This document shows positions 2,123 to 55,539 of a stretch of 64,000 nt of DNA, in pieces. Every line of letters starts with the position of its first letter. Within the stretch, counting starts at the first letter, position 1. A program made the position numbers and the translations under genes. Below the pieces are notes generated by a model. It saw only the letters and a list, made by a program, of their open reading frames with translations, made no database searches and was not told where the DNA came from. Origin of the DNA: a virus; IMG/VR virus record IMGVR_UViG_3300005264_000005, positions 1-64,000 of that record; one strand, given 5' to 3'.

Positions 2123-4162
2123 ATGTTAGTAAAGTCAGTAAAAATAGATTGGAACTGGGCAGGAGATACTGTTTTCCTGAAAGGATTTAATATAGCAGTA
2201 TGTCAAGATGCGGATCTTCCAGATGTACAGTCTGTATCAAAAACATTTGCTAACGTACAAGGCTCGAATAATGCATACTCCTTCATCTTCAAGGATGTCA
2301 TTCTTCAGGATGGAGGAGATTACACTGCATATATACAAGCAGTATATGCCAACAAGGATTCTAGTTGGATTAGTAGTGGTGGTTTTTTAGTAGAAGACGA
2401 TGGCCTAGCCACTATATCAAATGCAAATTTAACAATAGAGGACGTTAAGGCTGGCGCTGGATGGACTAACTTGCCTTTAGATGGCGCTACTAATAATACT
2501 ACTATATATCAAGAGAATGAACCTCTAGAGATTAACTCTAAGTTTGGTTTTATATGGATAAGGGATTCTGACAAACAAATATTTACATACAATGGTACAA
2601 GCTGGATAGAAGGTAAGTCAGGAGAGAGTCCGATAGCTTGCATCTTATCAAATGAGTCTCATACTGTTCCAGCTCTAAATGACGGTACTGTAACCTCATA
2701 TACTGGATCAGGTACAGAAATATACGTATACGAAGGACTAACAGCATTGCAATATGATGGAGTTGGTACATCAAATGGCACATGGAAAATAATCTCAACA
2801 GGCTCTGATGTGACTACAGGCTCTTTGTCTGACCAAGGCGTGAGTGCGTTCGCTGGAACTGTATCTTCAATGACTGCTGATGTTGCATCTGTCTCTTTTA
2901 GGGTTATAGGCAAGACTATACATGGAGAATCATTTGACTTCAATAGAGTCCAGTCTCTCACAAAATCTAAGGCTGGTATAATTGGTGTTGACGGTCAGGA
3001 TGGATCAATTGGCATAGACGGATTGCCAGGACCTGTTATATCGCTAGTTACTTCAAAACAAGCATTTACCTTCACAGATGACATATTAGATGGTGGTCAG
3101 TCTGATATTATATTAGATGTAGTAAGACAAAATACATCAGAAACAGTTACGTGGACATCTGTTCCATCTATTATTACTGGTACTGGAAATCAAAAAATAT
3201 TAACAGCTGCTTCTTTTGGATCTAATACGCAGTTAGCTATAACTATTACAACTCCTGCTGGATTGACAGATAAGACAACTATAGTAAAACTAAATCAATC
3301 TACAGCAGAAGCAGGAGCTGATATAACAAGCAGCAATAAGGCTGCAGGACTATCAAGTCCTGATACAAGATCCGTCAACTCTCCTCCTTCATTTTACTAC
3401 ACTAAAGGCTCAGGTGTATATACAGAGTTTAAGCAATCAAGCGTCATAGGAGCACCTACAGGAACTACATATTGTCAGCTGGTTAATAATGTTCCATGGA
3501 GTTCAGTGTCAGGCGGCGCAATTGTTCAGACTGCATATTCTGGAGACAACTACTATAAGAGAAAGAGCACAAGCACCACTACATGGGGAGCATGGACTAC
3601 AGTAGCAGATGGTTCAGATAATACTAAGACTTCATTTGAGACTGGATTTACAGGTGACACTGGTGGTATAATACTAGGGGCAAACGCATCGATACGTACA
3701 ACCGGTAAGGATAGTTATATAGATACTACTAGCGGTGTATACATGGGGAATGTATCAGGAGTAGCTAAATTCGGGATAGGCAATGGAACTAATTACATAT
3801 CATGGGATGGTGCTTTGCTGGATATTAAAGGAAAGCTTACTGCTTCAGAAGTAGACGCGCCAACTATAACAGGAGGCACGCTTAGTGCATCAAGCATAAG
3901 TGCATCAAGCATAAGTGCCTCGAATATCAGTGCATCAAGCATAAGTGCATCAACAATGAGTGCATCGACAATGAGTGGCGGAGCAATATCTGGATCTAGT
4001 ATAAATATACCAGGGGTTTCACCTAAATTTTCTGTAGATTCATTTGGCAACGTAACAATTAAATCTGCACTCAGTGGAGCTAGAATGGAAATAAGCAATA
4101 GCACTGTAAAAGTATATGATGTAGCAGGCAGACTCAGAGTACAGTTAGGAGACTTATCGTAA
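2123..4162 (+). CDS. Tail fibre / host-specificity-like protein
   Basis: A 679-residue beta-rich protein with Shine-Dalgarno AAGGAG. The N-terminal ~100 residues resemble the fibronectin-like modules of J-type host-specificity proteins (FKDVILQDGGDYTAYIQAVY). Around residues 285-300 there is a collagen-like Gly run (GVDGQDGSIGIDGLPGP). Residues 410-490 look like a pyocin-knob type domain (DTRSVNSPPSFYYTKGSG followed by TWGAWTTVADG). Residues about 585-620 are pentapeptide repeats (S-A-S-S/T-I/M), consistent with a fibrous stalk. The C-terminus (RMEISNSTVKVYDVAGRLRVQLGDL) is a typical end of a trimeric fibre. It probably contacts the host surface. Confidence 0.8.
   Translation: MLVKSVKIDWNWAGDTVFLKGFNIAVCQDADLPDVQSVSKTFANVQGSNNAYSFIFKDVILQDGGDYTAYIQAVYANKDSSWISSGGFLVEDDGLATISNANLTIEDVKAGAGWTNLPLDGATNNTTIYQENEPLEINSKFGFIWIRDSDKQIFTYNGTSWIEGKSGESPIACILSNESHTVPALNDGTVTSYTGSGTEIYVYEGLTALQYDGVGTSNGTWKIISTGSDVTTGSLSDQGVSAFAGTVSSMTADVASVSFRVIGKTIHGESFDFNRVQSLTKSKAGIIGVDGQDGSIGIDGLPGPVISLVTSKQAFTFTDDILDGGQSDIILDVVRQNTSETVTWTSVPSIITGTGNQKILTAASFGSNTQLAITITTPAGLTDKTTIVKLNQSTAEAGADITSSNKAAGLSSPDTRSVNSPPSFYYTKGSGVYTEFKQSSVIGAPTGTTYCQLVNNVPWSSVSGGAIVQTAYSGDNYYKRKSTSTTTWGAWTTVADGSDNTKTSFETGFTGDTGGIILGANASIRTTGKDSYIDTTSGVYMGNVSGVAKFGIGNGTNYISWDGALLDIKGKLTASEVDAPTITGGTLSASSISASSISASNISASSISASTMSASTMSGGAISGSSINIPGVSPKFSVDSFGNVTIKSALSGARMEISNSTVKVYDVAGRLRVQLGDLS
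3884..3973 (+). repeat. Six tandem 15-bp repeats in the fibre gene
   Basis: Six in-frame copies of a 15-base unit (AGTGCATCAAGCATA, with two copies diverged to end ACAATG and one to AATATC) encode the S-A-S-x-I/M pentapeptide repeat of the fibre stalk. Copy number could change by slippage or recombination, altering stalk length. Confidence 0.9.
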
Positions 4163-4163
4163 T

Positions 4164-4454
4164 ATGAATTTTGGTTTATTAATTAAAAATTCAGATGGTG
4201 ACATTAAAATGGATCCAAGTACTCATTTACTCAGGGTACACACAGAGGGATCTATGACTTTTAGTAATGTATTAACCTCACAGCAAACACATACATTTGA
4301 AGCCCTACCTTATGTTCCTAGGGTCCATTTAGAGTATAGTGCAGTGCCTTTTGGAGGAGTATGGTCTACAGTGACTAAAAACTCGATAACTATACATATT
4401 GCTGCTGCCTTCACGTATAGTCACGTTGTGAGTTATCATATACTAAGGAGATAG
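4164..4454 (+). CDS. Small virion/fibre-associated protein, family with the next gene
   Basis: A 96-residue beta-type protein whose ATG overlaps the region of the fibre stop. Its start (NFGLLIKNSDGD) closely resembles that of the next protein (SFGLRVTNDAGDE), so the two appear to be paralogues or to share an N-terminal attachment segment. It probably forms part of the fibre tip or an adhesin. No catalytic motif is visible. Confidence 0.65.
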   Translation: MNFGLLIKNSDGDIKMDPSTHLLRVHTEGSMTFSNVLTSQQTHTFEALPYVPRVHLEYSAVPFGGVWSTVTKNSITIHIAAAFTYSHVVSYHILRR

Positions 4455-10289: not shown

Positions 10290-10507
10290 CCCATCTATAT
10301 GTTTCCATATAGCTTAGACTATATCATCACCCCATTGCTGGGGGCTAGGCGCTTCCGCTCACTTGAGCGTACTCCCTGTCGGGATAGTCGTTGAACCTTC
10401 CTCTTTCGAGGCTTGGATGCTGATTGCCTTCGTCTTTAAACGGTCAGGGTTTCCAGCAGTTCACCTAGTTTTCGACATACATTACTGTATGAAGTCTCTG
10501 CAAGTTA

Positions 10508-12412
10508 AAGATTACAAAATTGTTTAGATTTAAGGATTACCTCACCACAAGGATTAACTCCATAGCTTGCCAATGGATCTCTACCTAGTAGTGCTGCAGT
10601 TTTCTGCAATCCTTCACGGTTAACGATTCCTCGCTCACCATTACCAGATCTCATAAGAGCCATCCACTCATCCATAAACGTAGCCATTTCAGGCTTCTCA
10701 GTATATGCTACAGAGTTATTAGATAGAGCACGTTGAGGTTGATGTATCCAGAACTCTCCGTCTTTAGCTCCACGCATGCGGATATCAGATAGGTTAGATA
10801 GACTAATGCCAGCACTACGCCTAACACCGCCTACAACTACGCAATTAGCAATCATGCATGCAATATCATGACACTCAATGGATGTAAGCTTACGACCAGC
10901 AGCATTAACAAAGATATTAGAAGTAAACTTCATTAATTGAATGAGAGGCTCAGGACCGCTTGCTCGTCCGCCAAATGTTTTCAGTCTTGCATTCTTAGGG
11001 CGGATCTTATCTGTATTAATATGAGGAATAATTCCTCTATATAAATGGTCAATTAGTTTACGATAGCCTTCAGCCCATCCTTTTTTACTATCAGCAAAAA
11101 CAATAGTATCATGTTCAGGGTTATCGCTAAGGTCAATAAAGCCATCAGGTACAAGCGGAAGCTTGCAGACTTCCTGTCTCTCAACGCTAAATCCACAGCC
11201 AGTACCATTCATTAAGATGTATAGTATCTCACTAAATGCACGAGCATCATCAATAGCTACATATGCACAGTTACCTGTCAATATACCGTTAGCTAAAGTA
11301 AAGGTGCTAGTTACAGGTTCAGTAACACAAAACACTTCATCAGTATCAAGTTCTTCTATGTTGGTAACGTAGAATTTAGTGTCTGCTCTCAGTGTCAACC
11401 TTATGAGAGGATTTTTTCTAATGCCGAAATTGGTCTCCATCGAAGATAATGTATTTCTACCAGTAACTACATATCCACACAAAGGCGCAATCTTATCAAC
11501 AAAGTTTATTGCTTCAATATCCTGAGATGCTAAGACTGGCTGAACACTATTCATAGAGGCATCTGCAGCCAAGTATCCCATGAGCCAATAATGTAGATAG
11601 TTAACATCACTTAACTTATCGTACGGAAGCTTTTTCCAGTCTTCAAAATAGCCTTTATGAAAAACAACTAAAGCATCACCGTCCATGTATCCCGGGTACC
11701 ACAAAGAAGAGTGTCCATATTCTTTAAACTTATCTATATAAGCTAAGTCTTTTTCTCCGCACAGTCTAATTTTAGCACGACCTCTAGAGTCTAGCGTACC
11801 ATCACCAAAACCAAATCCACGAATAAATGCTTCAGTATTAAAGCTTCTATATTCACAGTCTATTACATTAGAAGGAATAACATCTCCAACCTTTAAATCC
11901 GTTACCTCTCCTCTATTACTAGTAATCCATCTGTGATCAGGTGTAGTTGAAATGCTTCTTCTTACATTAGTTCTAGCTCCAGGGCGTAGTGTAACCTTCT
12001 GCAAAGCTTGACTGCCAAACGATCTAACAGTGGCCTCTTTAAAATCTCCAAGCTTAGTTAAGACATTTACCTTATCTCCATCTTCAAACTCAGAAAATGA
12101 TCTTAATCCACTTAGCGTAATAAACTCTGTGTCTGAGCTGAAGCAGTTATATCCTGCAATGTTTTCACGTTCAAGAGCTGGGCCAGCAGCCCATAGAGAT
12201 CTCATGGAAGGCATGTTCTCAAAGCATCTAATGCCTTCAATAGCAGCTAGAAACTCTGCCCGTAGATCTCCGTCAGGAGTACGGCCAATAAAGAAATCTT
12301 TATATCTATCTACAGTTTCATCCCAAACTTCTCTGCGCCCTTCTTTTTCAAGCCATCTGCTATATGTTCTAGTGTAGATGAACTCTTCGTACTGACTAGG
12401 AAACTTAGACAT
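10508..12412 (-). CDS. nrdJ: Class II (B12-dependent) ribonucleotide reductase, first exon, with intein
   Basis: The gene starts MSKFPSQYEEFIYTRTYSRW and carries FENMPSMRSLWAAG, GTGCGFSVERQ, VVVGGVRRSAGISL and YGVNPCGE (radical Cys and its Glu). These are the hallmarks of the monomeric adenosylcobalamin-dependent reductase that makes deoxynucleotides. Residues 90-381 are an intein interrupting AGYN/CAYVAIDD. The frame runs into a group I intron after FCNL. With pieces at 9084-9731 and 7726-8397 the full enzyme is rebuilt by RNA splicing, cis protein splicing and trans protein splicing. It heads the reductase block, directly after a small helical protein. Confidence 0.93.
11270..12145 (-). mobile_element. 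Intein with LAGLIDADG endonuclease domain in nrdJ
   Basis: This 292-residue intein begins Cys-Phe-Ser-Ser-Asp-Thr-Glu-Phe and ends NGILTGN before a Cys +1. The penultimate residue is Gly instead of the usual His. Block B is visible as STTPDHRWI. Two LAGLIDADG-type helices, FIRGFGFGDGTLD (from intein residue ~107) and LMGYLAADASMN (from ~188), show an intact-looking endonuclease domain. Confidence 0.9.
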
Positions 12413-12898: not shown

Positions 12899-13923
12899 CA
12901 ATTATGTTAACCTATAGGCTCTTTATCCCATAGTTCTGCATATTCATTTTGTTATACATGCAGTTCGGACTATATCATCACTCAAATAATCTGTTAACGT
13001 TGTACATGCTTTATAGTCACACAGTATGCCATCTATATGTGAGCAGCCAGTATTTATATATACATTACAATATTTAACGGGATCTTTATCTAAGCGTTGG
13101 GCGCTCGTGGATGGGTTATTGGTTTGACAATCCTCACCATCTAGTCTCTGAACCTTCATAGATACATATTTGTCATTCTCTATGCTTGGCTGCTGATCAT
13201 CCTCTTCAGGGTTTTCCAGCAATTCACCCAATTTTACAACGGCAGATTGTTGTAAGATGTTTAAATCTAAAAGTCGTCTTGCTCTTTCTGGATCATTACT
13301 CCATTCACATAATATATCAGTAGTAATTTTGCTATAGTAGTGTGCATATAAGGTTGCATTGCCAAATTGCTTATGTAGCCACCTATGATCTGAGCTAATT
13401 ATTAATGCTAAATTAGTAGATACATTATTTAGGCGGTTACAGTCACGATGATGGACATGATATCCTTCTGGCAATTTATCTATTTTTAAAACTTCAAAAA
13501 CAACAGCGTGGTGCTCTTTTATGCTGCCATATGTAGGAGTGTGGATTATTCTATATCCATCCTCATTATATTCTCTGTTTCTGAAATTAGGATTATTGCT
13601 ACCCCTTTGGTTTTCACTTTCCCAAGACGCATGACAAGCAATAGAGCAGAAATTATTAGAAGCTCTATTCTTTCTGTGCTTTTTCAAATGAAACTCTTTC
13701 TCGCAATATTCACACTTACTATTTAACTCTCCAGAATGTAGCTTACCAATGCATTCTCAGCTGCAAGTCTTGAAAGACTTTGCTCTGCTAGGATAAACCT
13801 CAACTTCTTTTTCACAAACTAAACATCTTACGACTACTTTCATATAAACTACTTCTTAATCATGATCCTAGTAATATTACTAAGTATCTGTTAGTAACGT
13901 AGGAACTATAGAAAAGTTAGTTT
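12899..13923 (-). mobile_element. Group I intron in dut
   Basis: Exon 1 ends GGAACGGT (13924) and exon 2 begins AGATAATGG (12898). Joining gives GTV-DNGYRGE without a gap, with T before the intron and G at its last base. On the - strand, GATGATATAGTCCGAACTGCATG near 12960 marks the core. The intron is 1,025 bases and carries an HNH gene with an in-frame stop. Confidence 0.88.
12944..13843 (-). pseudogene. Intron HNH endonuclease, N-terminus interrupted by a TGA
   Basis: From an ATG at 13843 the frame reads a zinc finger (CLVCEKEVEVYPSRAKSFKTCS). It then hits TGA (13757-13759) and continues ECIGKLHSG...CEYCEKEF... into the HNH core EGYHVHHRDCNRLNNVSTNLALI...HRWLHKQ. The two parts form one normal protein, so the TGA is most simply a point mutation (for example from CGA or TGG). 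The downstream ATG at 13687 would still give a 247-residue protein with the HNH core intact, so partial activity is possible. Readthrough is less likely because TGA acts as a normal stop elsewhere. Confidence 0.75.
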
Positions 13924-27677: not shown

Positions 27678-27993
27678 TCAAAGTTAAAACTAAGGCTAGG
27701 TCATTTCTGCCTAGCTCTTACAGATTTCCTGTAAGAACGGACTATATCTTATATCAAATAAGTTTAACTTTGATACTCACATGTTAGTAAGGCTTTATCC
27801 ATATTTATAAACTTAGGATGTACCTTTAGTCTCTGAACCTTCTCCATCCTTTCAGAACAGGAGCTTGGCTGCTGATCGTCACACTAATAATATATTTTCA
27901 AGCATTCACGCTCACCATTTCTAGTCACGTTGTAGTTATATTATCTTACGCGAGTTTCCAGCAATTTATGCGATTTTACACGAGCAATACTTT

Positions 27994-28150
27994 ACCCGTA
28001 TTGTGACCAGCATTGATTACTTTATAGATTCCACGATCATTTACATCAATATTTTCTATATCAATGTCTATATTACGTGTCTTCTTTACAAGATCAACAG
28101 TGCCTTTTATAACGTCGAGAGTCTTTAATCCAAGCAAGTCCATCTTTAAG
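27994..28150 (-). CDS. dnaE: DNA polymerase III alpha, small exon
   Basis: These 157 bases encode (V)LKMDLLGLKTLDVIKGTVDLVKK...VNDRGIYKVINAGHNTG, the conserved LLKFDFLGLKTL block. The first base completes the codon begun in the upstream exon (GGGGT + C). The stop codon of the upstream intron's endonuclease lies inside the first bases of this exon. Confidence 0.88.
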
Positions 28151-29081: not shown

Positions 29082-29443
29082 TGCATATCCCTATAAGTTA
29101 GATTTTAATCCCAATGGATTATTTGTTAATAACTTAAGTCCAAGCAATTCCAAACTAAGGCTAGGTCATTTCTGCCTAGCTCTCTAGGTTTTCCCTAGAT
29201 GATCGGACTATATCTTTAGCTAAATTAATAGCTAGTTGGAGCCGCTAGCAATATTACTATTACTAGCTTTAGTCTCTGAACCTTCTCCATATTATATAAT
29301 AACTTAGGAGCTCGGCTGCTGATTTTCCATATATCTAATTAATTTTCAAGCATTCACGCTCACCATTTCTAGTCACGTTGTAGCTTAATTAGCTTTAGGT
29401 TGTTCCAGCAATTTCCCAACTTTTAAGGGAGCCTTAAACGTTA
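28151..29443 (-). mobile_element. Group I intron in dnaE with EDxHD-type endonuclease
   Basis: The exon ends GGGGT (29444) and resumes CTTAAAGATGG (28150), giving EEQG-V-LKMDLLGLK. The last intron base is G. It shares core sequence with the intron at 26736-27993. The 29,082-29,433 stretch holds only intron core. Confidence 0.85.
29124..29133 (-). promoter_or_regulatory. GTTATTAACA motif before intron endonuclease
   Basis: An exact copy on the - strand, 43 bases before the ATG at 29081. No convincing RBS-hiding stem was found. Confidence 0.5.
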
Positions 29444-31101
29444 ACCCCCTGTTCTTCAACATCATAATACTCATACTGAGTTAAGACTGAAGCACCATCT
29501 TTCTTAGTTGAGATCATAGATGGAACATACTCTGTAGTTGGCTTGTCTGAAATAACAAACGCACAATTATGAACTAGTATGCCATCAATGTAACCATTTC
29601 GACTTTCTTCTTCTTTAGTAATAACTGAAAAGTCATATACCTTATCGGTTCTTTCGTACTTAATGTCTTGATAAAAACAATCTTTAATTTTATCATTCTT
29701 GTAAGGCTGAAGAAAACCTATTAGATATTTATATAGAAAAGAAGATGTGCGCGTTAATTCTAATTGATAAGAATCATTGCATTGATATTCTCCATTTGGA
29801 AACTTACGCTTCACACCTTTTTTAGTTACAATACTACCAGTTATGCCTAAAAGTTCTAATTCTGTTAGAATAAAGCATATTAATTTAAAGGATGATATTT
29901 TTATTCTAATAGAATTCTCTTGTACAGATGCATTGGCTGATAAAAATCCTTTTAACCAAGATAGCTTATTTTGCATATCTTTAAATATAGGAATATCTTT
30001 ATCTACTGTCTTAAATTTAAATCCTGATCCATGTAATAATTCAATGTTATTCGTAGCTTTTTTCGATAAATGAAACATATCACTTCTAGATCTAGGAGTA
30101 ATAATATCAAGATTATCACAAAGAGACTTCATTTCTTTATCTTTTTCTGGAGTAAAGTAAATAAAGGATGATCTATCATCATAATTACCATCATTCCAAA
30201 ACCACCCTGAAACAATAGACATATCATTTAGATTATTAAAATTATAATATCCTAGATTTTTACCTACAGATTCTCCAGCATTACATACTCCTTTGTCATA
30301 AAAAAACTTATGATCTTCAGTAAAGTATAGCTTTCTTTTATTGCCACTATATTTAGAAGTTGAATAACTTATTGAGTATATACGCTTAATGCCAGAGCAA
30401 AAAACTAAAGCTTTTTTTATTCCGACTTTAGTAAGAATTTCAACTTCTGTGCCATCTAAAGAATCAATTCTTTTATAGCCATCAACAGTTAAAAGATTGC
30501 CTTCTCCTGCTGAGCAAGCATGCACACCGAGAGCTTGAGGCAATCCCTCAAACTTAATTGCAATTCTCCAGATCTCCTTGGCATCATCATTCTCTCTGAT
30601 AGCTTCTTGTAGTTGCTTACTTGCATCAAATGCTTCTTGTAATTTAATACCAGGAACATCAGGAATATGCTTAGCAATATCCGCACCAGACTGAATTGCT
30701 TTACCTAGTGCTCTAGCAGCACTTCTTACTGCAGCCTTAGCAGCCAACGTATTAAAGGTTACGACATCAGATACGCGATCTTCACCAAACTTACCTTTCA
30801 GATACTGCTTTACTTCACCTCTAAGCTCCTTAGAGAAATCGATATCAAAGTCAGCATAAGAGCCAGGCGAAGCAACCTTTTGAGCAACAGTAGCTTTGTT
30901 ATCAGAAAGACCTAGTACCCAATGTAAGAGAGAGTTAACGCTTGTATCAACTTCTCCTTTAAGTTTATCTTCTATTTTTTGAAGTACGACATTACGTACT
31001 TCTGAATACAGTCTCTTGTGTTCAAGATCAGTAAGTTCATTAAATCTATCTTTAGATCTAACTAGCTTAGTGAAATCATTATCTATATGCCACTTAACCA
31101 T
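29444..31101 (-). CDS. dnaE: DNA polymerase III alpha, second gene, first exon with intein
   Basis: It begins with ~80 residues that have no place in ordinary DnaE (MVKWHIDNDFTKLVRS...), then SYADFDIDFSKELRGEVKQYLKGKFGEDRV, the catalytic D-x-D block, and FNTLAAKAAVRSAARALG. Residues 196-512 are an intein in GVHA/CAFVISDKP. The first half of DnaE is a separate gene ending at 33539, so the polymerase is made as two proteins split just before the catalytic aspartates. The new N-terminal extension may serve to dock the halves. The intron starts after GGGGT at 29444. Confidence 0.9.
29566..30516 (-). mobile_element. Intein in dnaE, endonuclease domain degenerate
   Basis: This 317-residue intein runs from CSAGEGNLLTVDGYKRID to DGILVHN, before Cys +1. 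Block B is visible as FTEDHKFFYDKG. Where LAGLIDADG motifs should be there are SGWFWNDGNYD and WLKGFLSANASV, with the second acidic residue replaced by Ala. Splicing residues are intact, while DNA cleavage is doubtful. Confidence 0.88.
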
Positions 31102-48770: not shown

Positions 48771-49955
48771 CTATTCTCCTTCCAAGTAAGCAATAACATC
48801 AACTTTCGCCTTTGCTATCTCATCTCTAATCGTAACATTCTCATTTTCATACGAATATTTCTTTTCATGAGCGGCCCATATTTTCAATATACCATACTTT
48901 AATATGCCCTTGCCATTAGCTACTTCTAGAATTTTTTGCGATGAAACCCTACTTACCAATTCGCTGAAGAAATGACCAGAATAGCTATCACAAAAAGCAA
49001 TAGTTGACTCATTGCAGAATCCAAATATACTAGTTATATATAGATTCCTCAATGCATACAAGCTAGAGATATAGCTAGTAGAAAAAGTATTATTAATGTC
49101 ACACTTAACCATATTGTAATTTAAAGGCTTGCCAGAAACTATATCATAAAATACATTATATGCAATCTGAGCAACCAGCATATTAATAGGCATTGATTGA
49201 TCGTTCTGTAAAGTCATGTCCGTACAGCTTAAGACCTCAGTATCTTTAAAGTTTAAGTACAGATTAAGCAAAGAAGGCAGGCAAGGAGTTTTGTATTTAG
49301 GCTTAATACTAAAATCACAATTTAAATCAGCATTAATCGTACTAATAATAGTACCGATTTCAGACTCAGGTGTAGCTGATTGAGAATAACTAACTCTTGA
49401 TTCTGATGAAACTAAAACTTGCCCAAACGTATCTTCGTTACCACAGCTAATAATAGTAATACAGCCTCTATTGATTCCATTATCTTCAATAGACTTACGA
49501 GCATTTAAATTATCAGTACAGTCAAAGATAATGTAATTTGCATCAGAGCCACCATGCAGATTCTTACCAGTCTTAAATCCACACTCATCAAAACGATTAT
49601 TAAAATACTCAATATCGAAACCGAATAAAGCAGAATATCTCTCTGCCATAACCTCAGCTTTACCTTTGCCTATATCGAAACTAAAGAAATTCTGTCTCTT
49701 TAGATTTTTATGTTCTACTGTATCCATATCAATTAAGATTAATTCCATCTTATGTTTGATATATTCAGTATTGCGAATATTACTTTCTATTTCATTGTTA
49801 TGATTTGAAATATGCTGTGCAATATTAGGAATTATCCTGCCGCCAGTACCACCGCATCCAACAACAATAATTTTCGTTACACCGTAGCTGCGAGAAAAAT
49901 TCTTTAAGTTTGGTTTAAATTCCACTGATCTTAATTTTAATAAATCAACATTCAT
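48771..49955 (-). CDS. E1/ThiF-like adenylating enzyme (PRTRC ThiF)
   Basis: A 394-residue protein with nucleotide-binding loop VVGCGGTGGRI (31-41), LILIDMDTVEHKNLKRQNFF (72-91), GKGKAEVMAERY, IIFDCTDNLNARK (142-153) and a candidate catalytic Cys in TPCLPS (C225). This is the full ThiF/E1 pattern (P-loop-like Gly motif, VE-x2-NLxRQ, DNxxxR). It would activate the C-terminus of the small LGTKG protein at 52710-52910. It follows the JAMM gene by 12 bases. Confidence 0.88.
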   Translation of the reverse strand: MNVDLLKLRSVEFKPNLKNFSRSYGVTKIIVVGCGGTGGRIIPNIAQHISNHNNEIESNIRNTEYIKHKMELILIDMDTVEHKNLKRQNFFSFDIGKGKAEVMAERYSALFGFDIEYFNNRFDECGFKTGKNLHGGSDANYIIFDCTDNLNARKSIEDNGINRGCITIISCGNEDTFGQVLVSSESRVSYSQSATPESEIGTIISTINADLNCDFSIKPKYKTPCLPSLLNLYLNFKDTEVLSCTDMTLQNDQSMPINMLVAQIAYNVFYDIVSGKPLNYNMVKCDINNTFSTSYISSLYALRNLYITSIFGFCNESTIAFCDSYSGHFFSELVSRVSSQKILEVANGKGILKYGILKIWAAHEKKYSYENENVTIRDEIAKAKVDVIAYLEGE

Positions 49956-49967
49956 ATAAATATCCTT

Positions 49968-50735
49968 TTAAATTCTATCTCTAACGCTGTTCCATAAACC
50001 TGCATATCCACTTCGTGCAGAAGGAATTCCGTATTGAGAATATGAACTTCTATTATTAATTCTAGGACCAGCATTATCGGTTGCTGGTTTTGGTGTTTGA
50101 ATAGAAATATTCTGCATACTTTTTTCAAAATCGAGACTGAATGATTCAGTTGATTCGCAAAATAAGTCATCAAAATCAGCATCTACATGAGTACCCATAG
50201 TGCTAAACCTAGCTTTAAATTGAGGTATAACTTTATTAATTCTACCCATAACGCCAGAATATCGATCTCTATTGTCATCAGCGTTATCTGTACTAGACCA
50301 GAATGCATTCATGTTACTTGTATGAGAATGTACATCCATAATAAGCTTACAGTTAGGGAAGTCAGTCCATAAATTAGATAAATCATACTTAGCTGACCCT
50401 GCACCAATAGCTTGTATCGGTACATGTAGGAAATATTTATCAGTTTCAGTATTATACATAATTAAAATATATGCTTCTAATTGCTTATTAGCATTATCTA
50501 ATTCAACATACCTAAAGAATTTTTGTATCTCCCAAAACAGAAGAGCTGGTATCTTCCTTGGCAGAACAGCAATATCAGACTCGCCTACTGGCAATCCAAC
50601 AATACCGTTAATTTTTACTGTAATATAGCCACAGCCACAAGCCTTGACTAAATAAATGCCATCCGAGCACAGGCAATACGTAGCTAATCCAAGCCCAGTT
50701 TTGTCTTCCGGAATTCCTTTAATAATATCAAACAT
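49968..50735 (-). CDS. JAMM/JAB metalloprotease (PRTRC A)
   Basis: A 255-residue protein with the complete zinc motif H136-S-H138-x8-S147-x2-D150 in LIMDVHSHTSNMNAFWSSTDNADD, as in JAMM deubiquitinases. The C-terminal 60 residues are disordered and Asn/Ser-rich. It would cleave or recycle the ubiquitin-like protein. It overlaps the E2-like gene by one base. Confidence 0.85.
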   Translation of the reverse strand: MFDIIKGIPEDKTGLGLATYCLCSDGIYLVKACGCGYITVKINGIVGLPVGESDIAVLPRKIPALLFWEIQKFFRYVELDNANKQLEAYILIMYNTETDKYFLHVPIQAIGAGSAKYDLSNLWTDFPNCKLIMDVHSHTSNMNAFWSSTDNADDNRDRYSGVMGRINKVIPQFKARFSTMGTHVDADFDDLFCESTESFSLDFEKSMQNISIQTPKPATDNAGPRINNRSSYSQYGIPSARSGYAGLWNSVRDRI

Positions 50736-51397
50736 TAAATAGTTCCTAACGTATAGTTACGACCAGAATCAACATATAGCTGATCAGGAAATTCTTCTTT
50801 TCCTTTTAGGAAATTAAATAAACCTAAAGGAGTATCAAATCCAACATGACGAAATAATGACCCTTGGAATAAATCATTATTAAATGGTGCATTAAACAAT
50901 CTATTGATATAATTACCAAGACCACAAAGTGATTGAAATTCACCAGATAAAACAGATCCACCACCCCAACACACCCAGCCACTATCACTTACATTTGGAA
51001 ATGGAAGATTGTATAAAATAGTATTGTCATTAAAAAACATAGGAGCATCTTTAACTGCCCATGCAAAAGTCTGACTTAGTGTAAAGTTTTTTTTATTTAC
51101 CTGTAATTCAAACTTCATAATTACACCAGGACGAATACAGTCAGTAATTACTTCGGACTTATAATTGGCATCAAACTTAACAGGAGGCGAATAAAGGAAT
51201 AAGAATGCTCTATTACCTTTTTCTTGCCATTTAATAGTTCCAACAGGTAAAACAGGAGTATTAATACCAGTACCTTTGTCTTGGAATGCCTTTACTAAAG
51301 ACTCAATCTTAACAGTTTTCTTAAATAAGCTATCGCCACCATTTCCATGAGTAACAATAGCTGCATTTTCTCTTATTTCAATTAAAACATTTGACAT
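50735..51397 (-). CDS. E2-like conjugating protein (PRTRC B)
   Basis: A 220-residue protein of the PRTRC B / prokaryotic E2 family. The signature is ILYNLPFPNVSDSGWVCWGGG (about residues 127-146), where C143 is the predicted thioester Cys and PFPNV the E2-type turn. Coupled to the JAMM gene and preceded by a 306-residue gene in the PRTRC F position. Confidence 0.75.
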   Translation of the reverse strand: MSNVLIEIRENAAIVTHGNGGDSLFKKTVKIESLVKAFQDKGTGINTPVLPVGTIKWQEKGNRAFLFLYSPPVKFDANYKSEVITDCIRPGVIMKFELQVNKKNFTLSQTFAWAVKDAPMFFNDNTILYNLPFPNVSDSGWVCWGGGSVLSGEFQSLCGLGNYINRLFNAPFNNDLFQGSLFRHVGFDTPLGLFNFLKGKEEFPDQLYVDSGRNYTLGTI

Positions 51398-51402
51398 AAA
51401 TA

Positions 51403-52323
51403 TTACTCCCGGAGTGTGCTAGAGACAAATTCTATATAAGTTTGCAGCTCAAGCATAAATGCATTTGTGTTTCGAATTCTGGCTTCATTAACGCTATATT
51501 CAAATACATAATGCATAGACATAAGAATATCAGTAATCGCACAAGTAGCCTCTTCTAAATCGCTGACCTTATCATTAGCCATGGCATACAAGTATAAAGT
51601 TTCAGCTGCACTGCTAAGTGTATCAAAGCCGCCTCTAAAGCTGTTAATATAAATACTATGACCAACACATCCCTTTAATAGTAAGCATACTTCAAAAGCA
51701 GTGAATCTGTAGTCAGCATTTATATTACAATTAATTAAAATATCATCCTTAATATGCTTTTTAAATTCAGTAAAAGGCTTGGCTAAATTTTTAAGTTTAA
51801 TTAAATCAATAAATGCCTGATCAAACATCTCTTTAAAAAAACTCTTATTGCTATTAACCTCTGTACTATCAAGTTCAAGATAAGCACTTCTTTCTGACAT
51901 TGCTTCAGTTAATAATCTATGAACATTTAAGTATACGCTTAATTCTGATGCAGTGTGACTTAAATTAGATTTGCCAATAAGCATTTCATTGTTACAGTCA
52001 AGAATTTTACTTAAATGACTATAGTATCCTTTTTCCAATCTCTGTATAGAGGCTGCCCAATTGTTCCACTTAGAATAAGAATACGTAATCGTAACAGATC
52101 CATTACTTATCCTTATATTATCAGTGTGCTCAAACAGATTAGCAGCCTTTAGCTCTCTTATCCAATGAGTTTTAATAAAGAAAGAAAGCTTTCTCTCCAT
52201 ATCAGAACTAGTATGAGCAGAAGATAAAGAAGAAGACTTAATGACTTTGTTTGTATATAAAAGGTATTGCAAATATGCATTTGATAATAAAAGTAAGCTA
52301 CTATGCACTTGTTGATCATTCAT
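51403..52323 (-). CDS. Helical protein in the PRTRC F position
   Basis: A 306-residue, almost entirely helical protein with no catalytic motif. It lies between the ubiquitin-like gene side and the E2-like gene, where plasmid PRTRC cassettes have protein F. I call it F only by size and position. It may be the target or adaptor of the modification. Confidence 0.55.
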   Translation of the reverse strand: MNDQQVHSSLLLLSNAYLQYLLYTNKVIKSSSLSSAHTSSDMERKLSFFIKTHWIRELKAANLFEHTDNIRISNGSVTITYSYSKWNNWAASIQRLEKGYYSHLSKILDCNNEMLIGKSNLSHTASELSVYLNVHRLLTEAMSERSAYLELDSTEVNSNKSFFKEMFDQAFIDLIKLKNLAKPFTEFKKHIKDDILINCNINADYRFTAFEVCLLLKGCVGHSIYINSFRGGFDTLSSAAETLYLYAMANDKVSDLEEATCAITDILMSMHYVFEYSVNEARIRNTNAFMLELQTYIEFVSSTLRE

Positions 52324-52651
52324 TAATGCTACCTCCTAGCATAGACATGAAGTAATCAAACTCAATGTCAGTTTTCATTTGTTTAAAAATTATTTTAAGA
52401 TTTTTTTCGGACTCCGTAAACTCTTGATATCGCTCAATGCTTAAGAAAGCTGTCTTAATCTTTGATTCAACATCTTCTATGACAGACAGTCTTTTAGTCG
52501 TTGTTGCTCTGGCTATTTCTTTACATACATCATCAACCTTAGACATATCAATTGATATAATAGACTCAGATTCATCAGGTAGATCAATAATTAAATCACA
52601 TAGAGATTTATCTTCTAAAGAAGTTTCAATAACTTCTACAGCTTCTTCCAT
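52316..52651 (-). CDS. Unknown acidic protein within the cassette
   Basis: ATG 52651 with AAAGGAGTTATT upstream is preferred over a longer frame. About 111 residues, acidic and helical (MEEAVEVIETSLEDKSLCDLIID). It overlaps the helical gene by 8 bases. Unknown; perhaps part of the PRTRC-like set. Confidence 0.6.
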   Translation of the reverse strand: MEEAVEVIETSLEDKSLCDLIIDLPDESESIISIDMSKVDDVCKEIARATTTKRLSVIEDVESKIKTAFLSIERYQEFTESEKNLKIIFKQMKTDIEFDYFMSMLGGSINE

Positions 52652-52668
52652 AATAACTCCTTTGAGAA

Positions 52669-52704
52669 TTGAAAATAATGGGGGAGTATAACCTCCCCCA
52701 TAGA
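52669..52704 (-). terminator. Stem-loop after the ubiquitin-like gene
   Basis: ATGGGGGAG-loop-CTCCCCCAT on the - strand, followed by TATTTTC, lies directly after the ubiquitin-like stop. It is probably a partial terminator so the small protein is made in excess over the enzymes downstream. Confidence 0.6.
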
Positions 52705-52709
52705 GCAAT

Positions 52710-52910
52710 CTATCCTTTTGTGCCAAGGCGCTCAGCGAAAGTAATGTATCGTACACCGTCTTCGACAGTGGTTGTAGAAGTACAGTTTAGGATATATGGA
52801 AACAATCCAGACATTTGATTTTTTACTGTTTCAGCATCAAAATCACCCTTAAGCTCAGATACTTCTTCAACATTCGCAATAGACACTACAGTTTTAATAA
52901 TTTCAGACAT
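52710..52910 (-). CDS. Ubiquitin-like protein (PRTRC C)
   Basis: A 66-residue protein ending FAERLGTKG. Its length, beta-alpha pattern (TVVSIANVEEVSELKGDFDAETVKNQMSGLFPYILNCTS) and the terminal G-T-K-G match PRTRC protein C, a prokaryotic ubiquitin-like family. The terminal Gly would be adenylated by the ThiF/E1. Its own stem-loop follows. The start has AAGGAGAAT upstream. Confidence 0.8.
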   Translation of the reverse strand: MSEIIKTVVSIANVEEVSELKGDFDAETVKNQMSGLFPYILNCTSTTTVEDGVRYITFAERLGTKG

Positions 52911-52995: not shown

Positions 52996-53970
52996 TTATT
53001 GGTAATGATCAGCATTGAACTCAAAATCTTCTCTGTTTATAAACTGATTATGGACTCTGTATAAATATCCTATATTAGTAAGTAGCCCAAATGATGCTAA
53101 AGCCCAATCTCCTAATTGAATAGACCAGCCTCTTTTAATAAATTTTTCTACTCTAAGAAACTGATTAATCTTATCTGGTAAGATTTGAAATATAAGAACC
53201 TTATCGCGAATAGCATGTAGCGTACCTTTATGCCAATATATCTGACTTCCATCATATGCAATAGAGCTATGCTTAAAATCAAACTGACTTATTAAGTCTT
53301 CAGGACAAGCATAAATTTTTTTCATTATCTGGAACCTTAAACCAGTATCTTTTTGACAATACTCAATAAGATGTTCCTTCTCGGTACCAGTATAGTTATC
53401 GTTTTTCTTGAAGTATTGATTTACACTTTCAAAGTCATGATCACTGCTAAAGAATAAATCAAAATCACTTTCAATTGTATCAACACCAGCAAACCAATTA
53501 ACCATTTTGCCACCAGCTAATATAAAATTTAACCCTTGACCATAAAGCCCATCAATGACCTCCATGATAGCGGTAGTTGTATGGTTATTCATCTTAAATT
53601 TGCGGATAAAAACTTCACGCTCACAACTCAAGCAAATATTATCAAATCTTAATAACTTGCACAACATAGGCTTATAAAACTCTGTCATAAGTCCTTTGAT
53701 GTCACTGGGCTTAATATTTACCAGCTTCTTGTGCTCTACTTTAGTTGATGTAGAAAATAAATCTTTACCAGTGAAGTCAAGGTTTTTTAGGTTTTTAACT
53801 TCAGCAAAATCCGTAGATACTCTATTAGCCTTAAGCGTAGTGATCTGAGTATTAGACCAGTCATCAGCAGCTGACATAGCATAGCTTGAAATAGTAGTTA
53901 TATTATTACCACATGGAACAGTTAAGATAGGCTCTACTCCAAGAGCCGTACCCATAAAACTAGCTGACAT
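52996..53970 (-). CDS. Nucleotidyltransferase-fold protein
   Basis: A 324-residue protein. FILAGGKMVNWFAGVDTIESDFDLFFSSDHDFE (about residues 149-180) has the G-G...S-D-x-D of the Pol-beta nucleotidyltransferase fold with both metal Asp. Following helices resemble tRNA-nucleotidyltransferase or MNT-type proteins. It could add nucleotides to RNA or protein. It is the gene nearest the GC-rich island and RT. Alternative: a tRNA-repair enzyme acting with the kinase/phosphatase genes at 56 kb. Confidence 0.65.
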   Translation of the reverse strand: MSASFMGTALGVEPILTVPCGNNITTISSYAMSAADDWSNTQITTLKANRVSTDFAEVKNLKNLDFTGKDLFSTSTKVEHKKLVNIKPSDIKGLMTEFYKPMLCKLLRFDNICLSCEREVFIRKFKMNNHTTTAIMEVIDGLYGQGLNFILAGGKMVNWFAGVDTIESDFDLFFSSDHDFESVNQYFKKNDNYTGTEKEHLIEYCQKDTGLRFQIMKKIYACPEDLISQFDFKHSSIAYDGSQIYWHKGTLHAIRDKVLIFQILPDKINQFLRVEKFIKRGWSIQLGDWALASFGLLTNIGYLYRVHNQFINREDFEFNADHYQ

Positions 53971-54322: not shown

Positions 54323-55099
54323 CTACCGATTCAGCAGTCTTTTAGCATCACAAGTCTTCTTGTAACGCATTAGTTTCAAATATTGCTCTGGATTGACACT
54401 ATTTAAGTATGCCAAGTATCCCATCTCTTCACTTGAAACATTTCCACTATAGATAGCAGCTCTCAATTTCTTGCGAGTCTCTCTGTTCATGGAAACTTTC
54501 TCATTGACCGTCATGCCGAGAACTTTTTGTGATGAATTCTTATATGAATATTGAATCTTATCGTTCCTAACTCTAAATCCACTATATCTAAGTCTCGATC
54601 TAACTGTATCAATTAAAGCTTTAATATCAGGCTTATCATAACCAGATATTGTAATATCATCAGCATACCTAGAATAATCTAGATTGCCTGTATCTAAAGA
54701 TTGATTTAAATCTTCATCAAATTCTCTTAAAATAATGTTTGAAATAATAGGACTACAAGGACTACCTTGAACTAGCTTATTCTCATAAGTAGATACTTCA
54801 CTCTCATATTCATCTAGAAAATACAAATCACTTTTCCTTATAGATGGAAAAAAATCAGCTATATCTATATTGAGAATCCAGTCTTTTTGAGTATGCATAA
54901 CAGCAGCGTTACTTGCACTAGACCCCTTTCTGAATCCATGACAAAAGCTTGATATCCACTCATCTTCCTCTAGCCTATTTTTAATTCTTCTTTGCTCTAG
55001 CTTCAACTCCTCACATGGAGCATGTATAATTCTTTTCTTGCCATTCTTTTTCTTACGATAATATATTTCATACAAAGACTTCTTATCGCTTAAAATCAT
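54323..55099 (-). CDS. Retron-type reverse transcriptase (compact)
   Basis: The true start is ATG 55099 after AGGAGGGAG; a longer upstream frame is not supported. 258 residues contain HAPCEELKLEQRRI (27-40, the NAxxH-like region), SSFCHGFRKGSSASNAAVMH (50-69), NIDIADFFPSI (77-87, catalytic D79/D81), QGSPCSPIISN (111-121), YADDITISG (145-153) and VLGMTVNEKVSMNRETRKKLR (193-213). The last replaces the retron VTG motif by VLG. Retron RTs are usually ~300-320 residues. Here the stretch between DFFPSI and QGSP is unusually short. No maturase or other domain is fused. It is preceded by a ~640-base structured leader. Confidence 0.9.
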   Translation of the reverse strand: MILSDKKSLYEIYYRKKKNGKKRIIHAPCEELKLEQRRIKNRLEEDEWISSFCHGFRKGSSASNAAVMHTQKDWILNIDIADFFPSIRKSDLYFLDEYESEVSTYENKLVQGSPCSPIISNIILREFDEDLNQSLDTGNLDYSRYADDITISGYDKPDIKALIDTVRSRLRYSGFRVRNDKIQYSYKNSSQKVLGMTVNEKVSMNRETRKKLRAAIYSGNVSSEEMGYLAYLNSVNPEQYLKLMRYKKTCDAKRLLNR

Positions 55100-55119
55100 T
55101 TTACTCCCTCCTATAGCAA

Positions 55120-55133
55120 GAGGCCGAAGCCTC
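55120..55133 (-). promoter_or_regulatory. UUCG-capped hairpin in front of the RT ribosome site
   Basis: GAGGC-TTCG-GCCTC is a very stable tetraloop hairpin whose 3' side is followed 9 bases later by the RT Shine-Dalgarno AGGAGGG. It may separate the leader RNA from the RT message or affect RT translation. Confidence 0.5.
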
Positions 55134-55539
55134 CTACAATAGCACTTACTCGGCCAGGTTTTAAACCTGGCAACGAAAGGCTGAACTCGCAGAGTCAGAG
55201 CTCTTGAGTTCAGTTTAATTAATTGCCGAAACAGCAATTATGAATAACAAAAATTGTATAAAAAGAAATTTCTTTCTTAGAATACCAATTAAATTGACAG
55301 AGGAGATTGAAAACGAATAGAAATTTGTATCCTTTGGATACTAAATTTTCTTTCGTAGCGTAAGTTTTGCTGTCACCTTTGGTGTCTGCAATTTTTAATC
55401 CCCGCCAGTCAATTGTAATATTCTGAACCGCGAGTGTGAAGCACGAGCTTCAACACGTACATAGACAACCGAAACGATTGTCAAAAAAATTGTATAAAGA
55501 ACTTGCATAGCATTAACTAGTTAACATACAAGGATATAC

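Follow-up and report, generated by a model that had tools for sequence, protein, structure and literature searches.

The type 6d operon, described from bacteria and plasmids, consists of genes for a ubiquitin-like protein (Ubl), a JAB protease with an N-terminal alpha+beta domain, an E1, an E2 and an alpha-helical protein in which charged residues are conserved (Iyer 2006, PMC1779556). The PRTRC modules (TIGR03735, TIGR03736, TIGR03737 and TIGR03738), as on plasmid 2 of Polaromonas sp. JS666, have the gene order C (Ubl), a helical-type protein, B (E2-like), A (JAMM) and ThiF (E1). The Bil (BilABCD) and Bub systems also combine Ubl, E1, E2 and JAB, and Bil tags phage proteins as a defence (Bil, Bub and CBASS literature: PMC10097602, PMC13373217). 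The present work concerns a cassette with the same logic in the IMG/VR record IMGVR_UViG_3300005264_000005, of which positions 1-64,000 were studied (the window, i.e. the whole stretch of 64,000 nucleotides; the complete record has 103,737 bases). On the minus strand of the window, at 48771-52910, genes for a Ubl, a small acidic protein, a protein of 306 amino acids (aa), an E2, a JAMM protease and an E1 follow one another, which is the PRTRC order of the Polaromonas plasmid with one small gene added. We consider it likely that a large phage here encodes a self-contained system for the reversible conjugation of a ubiquitin-like tag.

The cassette compared with described systems

An earlier note on this DNA had described six genes in this order on one strand, and all six open reading frames (ORFs) are in place, each preceded by a Shine-Dalgarno-like sequence. 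The features are as follows, L013 and L093 being loci of viral relatives and L093 the nearest one.

52710..52910, minus strand: Ubl, 66 aa, mature C-terminus LGTKG; hidden Markov model (HMM) of Ubls 3e-18 (the model includes the window sequence), predicted beta-grasp topology (AlphaFold2), PRTRC-C profile match
52678..52701, minus strand: terminator-like hairpin of 9 base pairs (bp) directly 3' of the Ubl gene; counterparts in 26 of 45 loci of the phage branch described below
52316..52651, minus strand: small acidic protein, 111 aa, isoelectric point 4.35, likely true start; a 100-aa protein at the equivalent place in L093
51403..52323, minus strand: 306-aa protein, function unassigned, positioned as the alpha-helical protein is in type 6d operons; homologues found only in L013 and L093
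50735..51397, minus strand: E2-like protein, 220 aa, C143 and N135; Pfam Prok-E2_D above the gathering cut-off, Cys and Asn conserved
49968..50735, minus strand: JAMM/JAB protease, 255 aa, E87, H136, H138, S147 and D150; PRTRC_A 6.4e-14, residues invariant in alignments
48771..49955, minus strand: ThiF/E1-type adenylating enzyme, 394 aa, GCGGTGG at 33 and C244; PRTRC_ThiF 5e-20, Pfam ThiF above cut-off, conserved residues, position in the E1 tree

The window proteins are closest to those of plasmid PRTRC modules. Homology to PRTRC extends to the E1, the JAMM protease and the E2, and the GTKG motif is also present in PRTRC protein C. The curated cut-offs, however, were missed by the window proteins: the E1 scored 71.9 bits against 144.75, the JAMM protease 52 against 101.8 and the E2 20.8 against 131.45, while the Ubl gave no match. 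The poly-Ubl proteins of Bacillus phage KLEB27-3 and of locus L137 score above the PRTRC_C cut-off. The window E1 falls on a separate branch of the E1 tree, the PRTRC Ubl has a tail of about 80 aa whereas phage-branch Ubls are bare or tandem, and the C-termini of phage-branch E1 and JAMM proteins are longer than those of PRTRC. No ParB gene was found among the ten neighbouring window proteins scanned, the rest of the record not having been scanned for ParB. Because all PRTRC models scored below cut-off and the E1 branch is separate, the cassette reads as PRTRC-like or type 6d-like and is not PRTRC by the curated cut-offs. The PRTRC likeness proposed in the earlier note thus stands for the gene order and the E1, JAMM and E2 profile matches, but not for membership at the curated level or for the E1 branch.

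With type 6d (Iyer 2006, PMC1779556) the cassette shares the five components, a single-domain E1 without rhodanese, the conserved E2 cysteine and the C-terminal glycine of the Ubl. It differs in having Asp in place of the downstream E2 His and in the additional small acidic protein. The N-terminal region of the JAMM protease is present, and no Arg/Trp pair, a trait of the type 6d JAB, is invariant in the alignments. In Bil, unlike here, BilD has inactive and active adenylation domains, BilA has two Ubl domains, and the carrier is not a phage; the Bil profiles of PADLOC gave only a weak 14.4-bit match, of BilD to the window E1. Ubl and JAB in phage tail gene clusters were noted earlier (Iyer 2006, PMC1779556): in the tail assembly proteins I and K of the lambda and T1 types a Ubl-like domain adjoins a JAB protease, but without E1 or E2, and this is not a conjugation system. 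Single phage genes already carry the label PRTRC A or ThiF in the KLEB27-3 and Acinetobacter phage ME3 annotations. No description of a whole phage E1-E2-JAMM-Ubl system was found in the open literature, most subscription papers and preprints being outside the search.

Active sites and the fold of the tag

The window Ubl ends in ERLGTKG, in agreement with the LGTKG terminus given earlier. In an alignment of 60 Ubls (the window and viral homologues) K65 is invariant, and G63 and G66 are nearly so. The window Ubl alone gave no match in any family-model library, while a profile led by it and including its relatives matched plasmid PRTRC-C with an hhalign probability of 98.2% (E 6e-14). The AlphaFold2 model has the order strand-strand-helix-strand-strand with a mean predicted local distance difference test (pLDDT) score of 84.4 and a less certain tail. 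Its best Foldseek matches in the PDB were protein L, protein G, a trypanosome Ubl and the SHANK3 Ubl-like domain, all of them beta-grasp proteins, none with E < 0.001. The beta-grasp topology suggested for the small protein is thus supported by the model, with weak E-values in the structural matches. A search of solved structures gave no credible relative for the Ubl, none for the JAMM protease, and only general E1 enzymes for the E1.

The E2 of the window contains LPFPNVSDSGWVCWG, with C143 and N135. It scored 30.1 bits with Pfam Prok-E2_D (gathering cut-off 25) and 2e-4 with PRTRC_B, and its predicted structure is confident (pLDDT 88.6). Conservation of the active sites was counted over about 80 cluster representatives, and C143 was present in 79 of 79 and N135 in 78 of 79. 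In the PNVxxSGxVC sequence, Asn and Cys are as far apart as in the eukaryotic HPN...C motif, the Asn of which supports isopeptide formation. In the JAMM protease, HSH at 136-138 is followed by x8-S-x2-D and preceded by Glu87, so that the Glu, HxH, Ser and Asp of the zinc site are all present in the window, and they are conserved in relatives. The E1, which also has likeness to ThiF and MoeB, contains C244 within SCTD; its GxGG, DxD, RQ and Lys residues and C244 (78 of 78) are conserved in the cluster representatives. The catalytic residues are thus near-invariant across about 80 clusters, and the active sites of the E1, E2, JAMM protease and Ubl appear intact, as predicted; the motifs quoted in the earlier note (E2 C143, JAMM HSH-x8-S-x2-D and a full ThiF/E1) were read correctly.

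Three phages, ME3 and two from IMG/VR, have a JAMM gene that is split by an insert where the catalytic HxH is encoded (L005 3236-5256, L024 5770-6104 and L025 4978-6096), as is expected of a conserved site; the ME3 insert contains an Rfam group I intron (3928-4264). The downstream His of the E2 was considered as a marker of phage or plasmid origin and was rejected, as Asp, His and other residues are mixed in both branches of the E1 tree.

A viral branch with its own tag architecture

The carrier of the window had been taken for a phage, and this is supported. The record is classed as a virus in IMG/VR, and the nearest relative, L093, belongs to a 206,638-base record with a large terminase. The locus is syntenic with L093, gene by gene from a reverse transcriptase to beyond the E1, and the primase-helicases of the two records are 52% identical. 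No terminase or tail sheath gene was found in the window's own fragment.

The cassette is not unique to this phage. By tblastn and reading of the matched loci it was found in Vibrio phages D69, D148 and D181, in Salmonella phage Arash and in KLEB27-3, and in a diverged, partial form in ME3, where no E2 was found. The order E2-JAMM-E1 with the Ubl upstream recurs in D69, Arash, KLEB27-3 and dozens of IMG/VR contigs. Scans of viral contigs with the single window E1 or E2 gave no matches and alignments were needed, which gave 93 IMG/VR relatives with the E1 and 73 with the JAMM protease. HMM mapping showed that E2, JAMM and E1 adjoin on one strand in nearly all relatives. The pooled loci form 82 clusters at 80% identity, a set that takes in phages, comparator plasmids and contigs of plasmid-like character; probable plasmids account for some of the clusters, most of these on the other E1 branch. 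A large terminase was detected in 41 of 75 distinct records and is the conserved opposite-strand neighbour in 24 clusters. Some of the genes are concealed by annotation: the Arash Ubl gene (L003 107-307) was missed and an out-of-frame ORF annotated over it, and the D69 E1 (L002 7986-8972) was annotated without its ATP-binding N-terminus. Matches in Acinetobacter "phage" MD-2021a (L010, CAKLQH020000004.1) were left out, being MoeB on an apparent host chromosome (prfA, hemK, moeB, kdp).

In an E1 tree of 113 rows, a quick tree with several long branches, 52 rows (51 viral and 1 plasmid) are split from the other 61 at 96% support in the Shimodaira-Hasegawa-like approximate likelihood ratio test. 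The 61 rows hold all other plasmid and chromosomal E1s together with 24 IMG/VR E1s, which places the window-type E1s, on this tree, on an almost purely viral branch. The two branches also differ in the architecture of the tag. Of the 45 Ubls detected on the phage branch, 40 have no tail or one of at most 5 aa (bare Ubls), whereas on the other branch the tail is longer than 40 aa in 33 of 45, a tail of about 80 aa being usual for plasmid and chromosomal Ubls. Tandem Ubls, with 2-6 copies per gene and each copy ending in G-x-K-G, occur in 13 of the 45 phage-branch loci. The residues after the E1 cysteine (median 119 on the phage branch vs 71) and after the JAMM HxH (230 vs 72) are likewise more numerous; the rows in these branch comparisons are not independent, and the differences are descriptive only. 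Tandem Ubl genes with G-x-K-G ends make sense only with processing and count in favour of conjugation.

The stem-loop that the earlier note had seen after the Ubl gene was verified at 52678-52701. Hairpins of at least 8 bp follow the Ubl gene in 26 of 45 phage-branch loci, compared to 1 after the E2 and 12 after the JAMM gene, although the E2 control is mostly coding sequence and the contrast is only partly informative. The hairpin here and the tandem copies elsewhere suggest that the Ubl is made in excess, as had been proposed; they agree with that proposal but fall short of proof.

Among the remaining genes, the longest reading of the acidic protein, used in the earlier note, is a 146-aa ORF with a GTG start (52316-52756) that overlaps the Ubl gene. 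The 111-aa ATG ORF at 52316-52651 starts past the stem-loop, is preceded by AAAGGAG and is the more likely gene, so that the protein is present where it had been placed but with a different gene model. The 306-aa protein gave no family match above cut-off in scans of family-model libraries. The protein directly upstream of the Ubl gene has a weak match to DUF2204 nucleotidyltransferases (window 52996-53970, L093 3889-4767). It was rejected as a shared component of the cassette, as the window and L093 genes are unrelated in sequence to that of ME3, and KLEB27-3 has another kind. Further upstream is a retron-type reverse transcriptase (54323-55237; L093 3121-3885 at the equivalent place). Related endonuclease-like ORFs lie inside the cassette in two phages (L013 2001-2732 and L093 7813-8586), where one separates E2 from JAMM and the other JAMM from E1. 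The phage record of L141, which has a four-copy Ubl cassette, contains a second ThiF-like gene (G063 158057-158785). The window phage is rich in homing endonucleases and has four group I introns in the window (10295-10517, 12954-13323, 27717-28003 and 29182-29493), near ribonucleotide reductase and DNA polymerase genes. In the rest of its record a PhoH-like gene with an intein-like insert, NAD-salvage-like genes and a Ro60/TROVE-like gene were recognised by eye (L007 356-2344, 6932-8071 and 9640-10899; L008 280-1680).

Proposed mechanism, purpose and meaning

In the proposed mechanism the window Ubl would be produced with its mature ...GTKG end, while in relatives with tandem or tailed precursors the JAMM protease would first have to cut the Ubl free. 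The E1 would bind ATP through GxGGxG, adenylate Gly66 of the Ubl and then probably become linked to it by a thioester at C244. The E2 would accept the Ubl on C143 and, with N135 as the oxyanion asparagine, form an isopeptide bond to a substrate lysine, and the JAMM protease would remove or recycle the Ubl. For the 306-aa and acidic proteins a part in substrate selection or an accessory role is probable. We infer each catalytic step, as well as an attenuator role of the hairpin and the excess of Ubl.

Data on the virion exist for Arash, for which Gp246, Gp247, Gp248, Gp249 and Gp251 are among the 116 proteins, metabolic enzymes included, of a liquid chromatography-mass spectrometry table (PMC10585845). 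The authors make no mention of ubiquitin or ThiF (PMC10585845). When the table was compared with the GenBank record, the E1, JAMM protease and E2 were among the listed proteins under either numbering.

Several observations weigh against a conjugation system of this kind. Foldseek gave no significant match for the E2, with UBC enzymes only among the weak ones, and its fold is unconfirmed. The window E2 lacks the downstream His that marks type 6d E2s, and the residue aligned with it, in a gappy alignment, is D175. Only three homologues of the 306-aa protein were found, and it is too diverged to place, and a common family for it was dropped on that account. The numbering of the Arash table may differ by one from that of the GenBank record, and the enzymes in Arash virions may be carry-over, since the list of 116 proteins includes metabolic enzymes.

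Two readings without conjugation are unlikely. The Ubl could be a carrier of thiocarboxylate in the manner of ThiS/MoaD, with activation by the E1 and release by the JAMM protease, for biosynthesis or tRNA thiolation, and the resemblance of the E1 to ThiF and MoeB and the beta-grasp nature of ThiF/MoaD systems fit such a role. Nevertheless, there is always an adjoining, dedicated E2-like protein whose Cys and Asn are invariant, no rhodanese or sulfur-metabolism gene was seen in the cassette, and tandem polyubiquitin-like genes are not a habit of sulfur carriers, which makes this role improbable. Still less probable, to a degree that we regard as very slight, is a functionless passenger, whether a PRTRC module picked up accidentally from a plasmid or a plasmid that was wrongly binned. 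PRTRC modules belong to plasmids and some IMG/VR relatives on the other E1 branch are plasmid-like, with ParB neighbours, but the synteny of the window with the terminase-bearing 206,638-base record, the occurrence in cultured phages, the deep viral branch of the E1 tree and the conservation of the catalytic residues all speak against it.

If the cassette conjugates, as we think likely, its substrates would be proteins of the infected cell, with late phage proteins slightly favoured and host or defence proteins nearly as likely; the two purposes are about equally likely. Tentatively, and somewhat below an even chance, the targets would be structural or late proteins that the phage itself makes in quantity, and the tag would serve their assembly, stability or protection. 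The enzymes in Arash virion preparations are consistent with this, as is the fact that many relatives have terminase and virion genes next to the cassette, and the signs of high Ubl output suggest abundant substrates. On the other hand, the cassette genes run opposite to the neighbouring virion genes, the Arash detection may be carry-over, and the window's own fragment has yielded no terminase or sheath gene. It is also possible, if somewhat doubtful, that the same chemistry mainly tags host proteins, e.g. defence proteins or components of Ubl-based host defences like Bil or type II CBASS. This take-over or counter-defence was the purpose offered by the earlier note, and it has so far gained no support. 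A phage protein as substrate would fit equally well with the place of the cassette, which in many relatives adjoins virion genes. Bacteria employ Ubl conjugation as a defence against phages (Bil, Bub, CBASS: PMC10097602, PMC13373217), large phages have many host-directed genes, and the distribution among phages is patchy, all of which would suit it. However, no linked gene known to act against defence was recognised in the vicinity of the window cassette, and the conserved neighbour in 24 clusters is the large terminase and not a host-interaction gene.

Phages probably tag proteins during infection, by a route for which the searched literature contained no description. With nearly, though not quite, an even chance, Ubl conjugation has an old and mostly separate branch that belongs to large lytic phages, with polyubiquitin-type precursors and a hairpin-assisted excess of the tag. 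Abundant proteins of the virion or the host would be modified by it during infection, which would be a eukaryote-like tagging belonging to bacterial viruses. A viral lineage is thereby added to the evolution of ubiquitin-like systems, including PRTRC, for which no paper on function was found in the searched literature. What is tagged is a directly testable question, with KLEB27-3, D69 and Arash as cultured model phages, and the existing Arash virion proteome is worth re-reading in light of the cassette. Bacterial Ubl conjugation is a known anti-phage weapon, and the full E1-E2-JAMM-Ubl set in dozens of phages means that the phages themselves may tag proteins.

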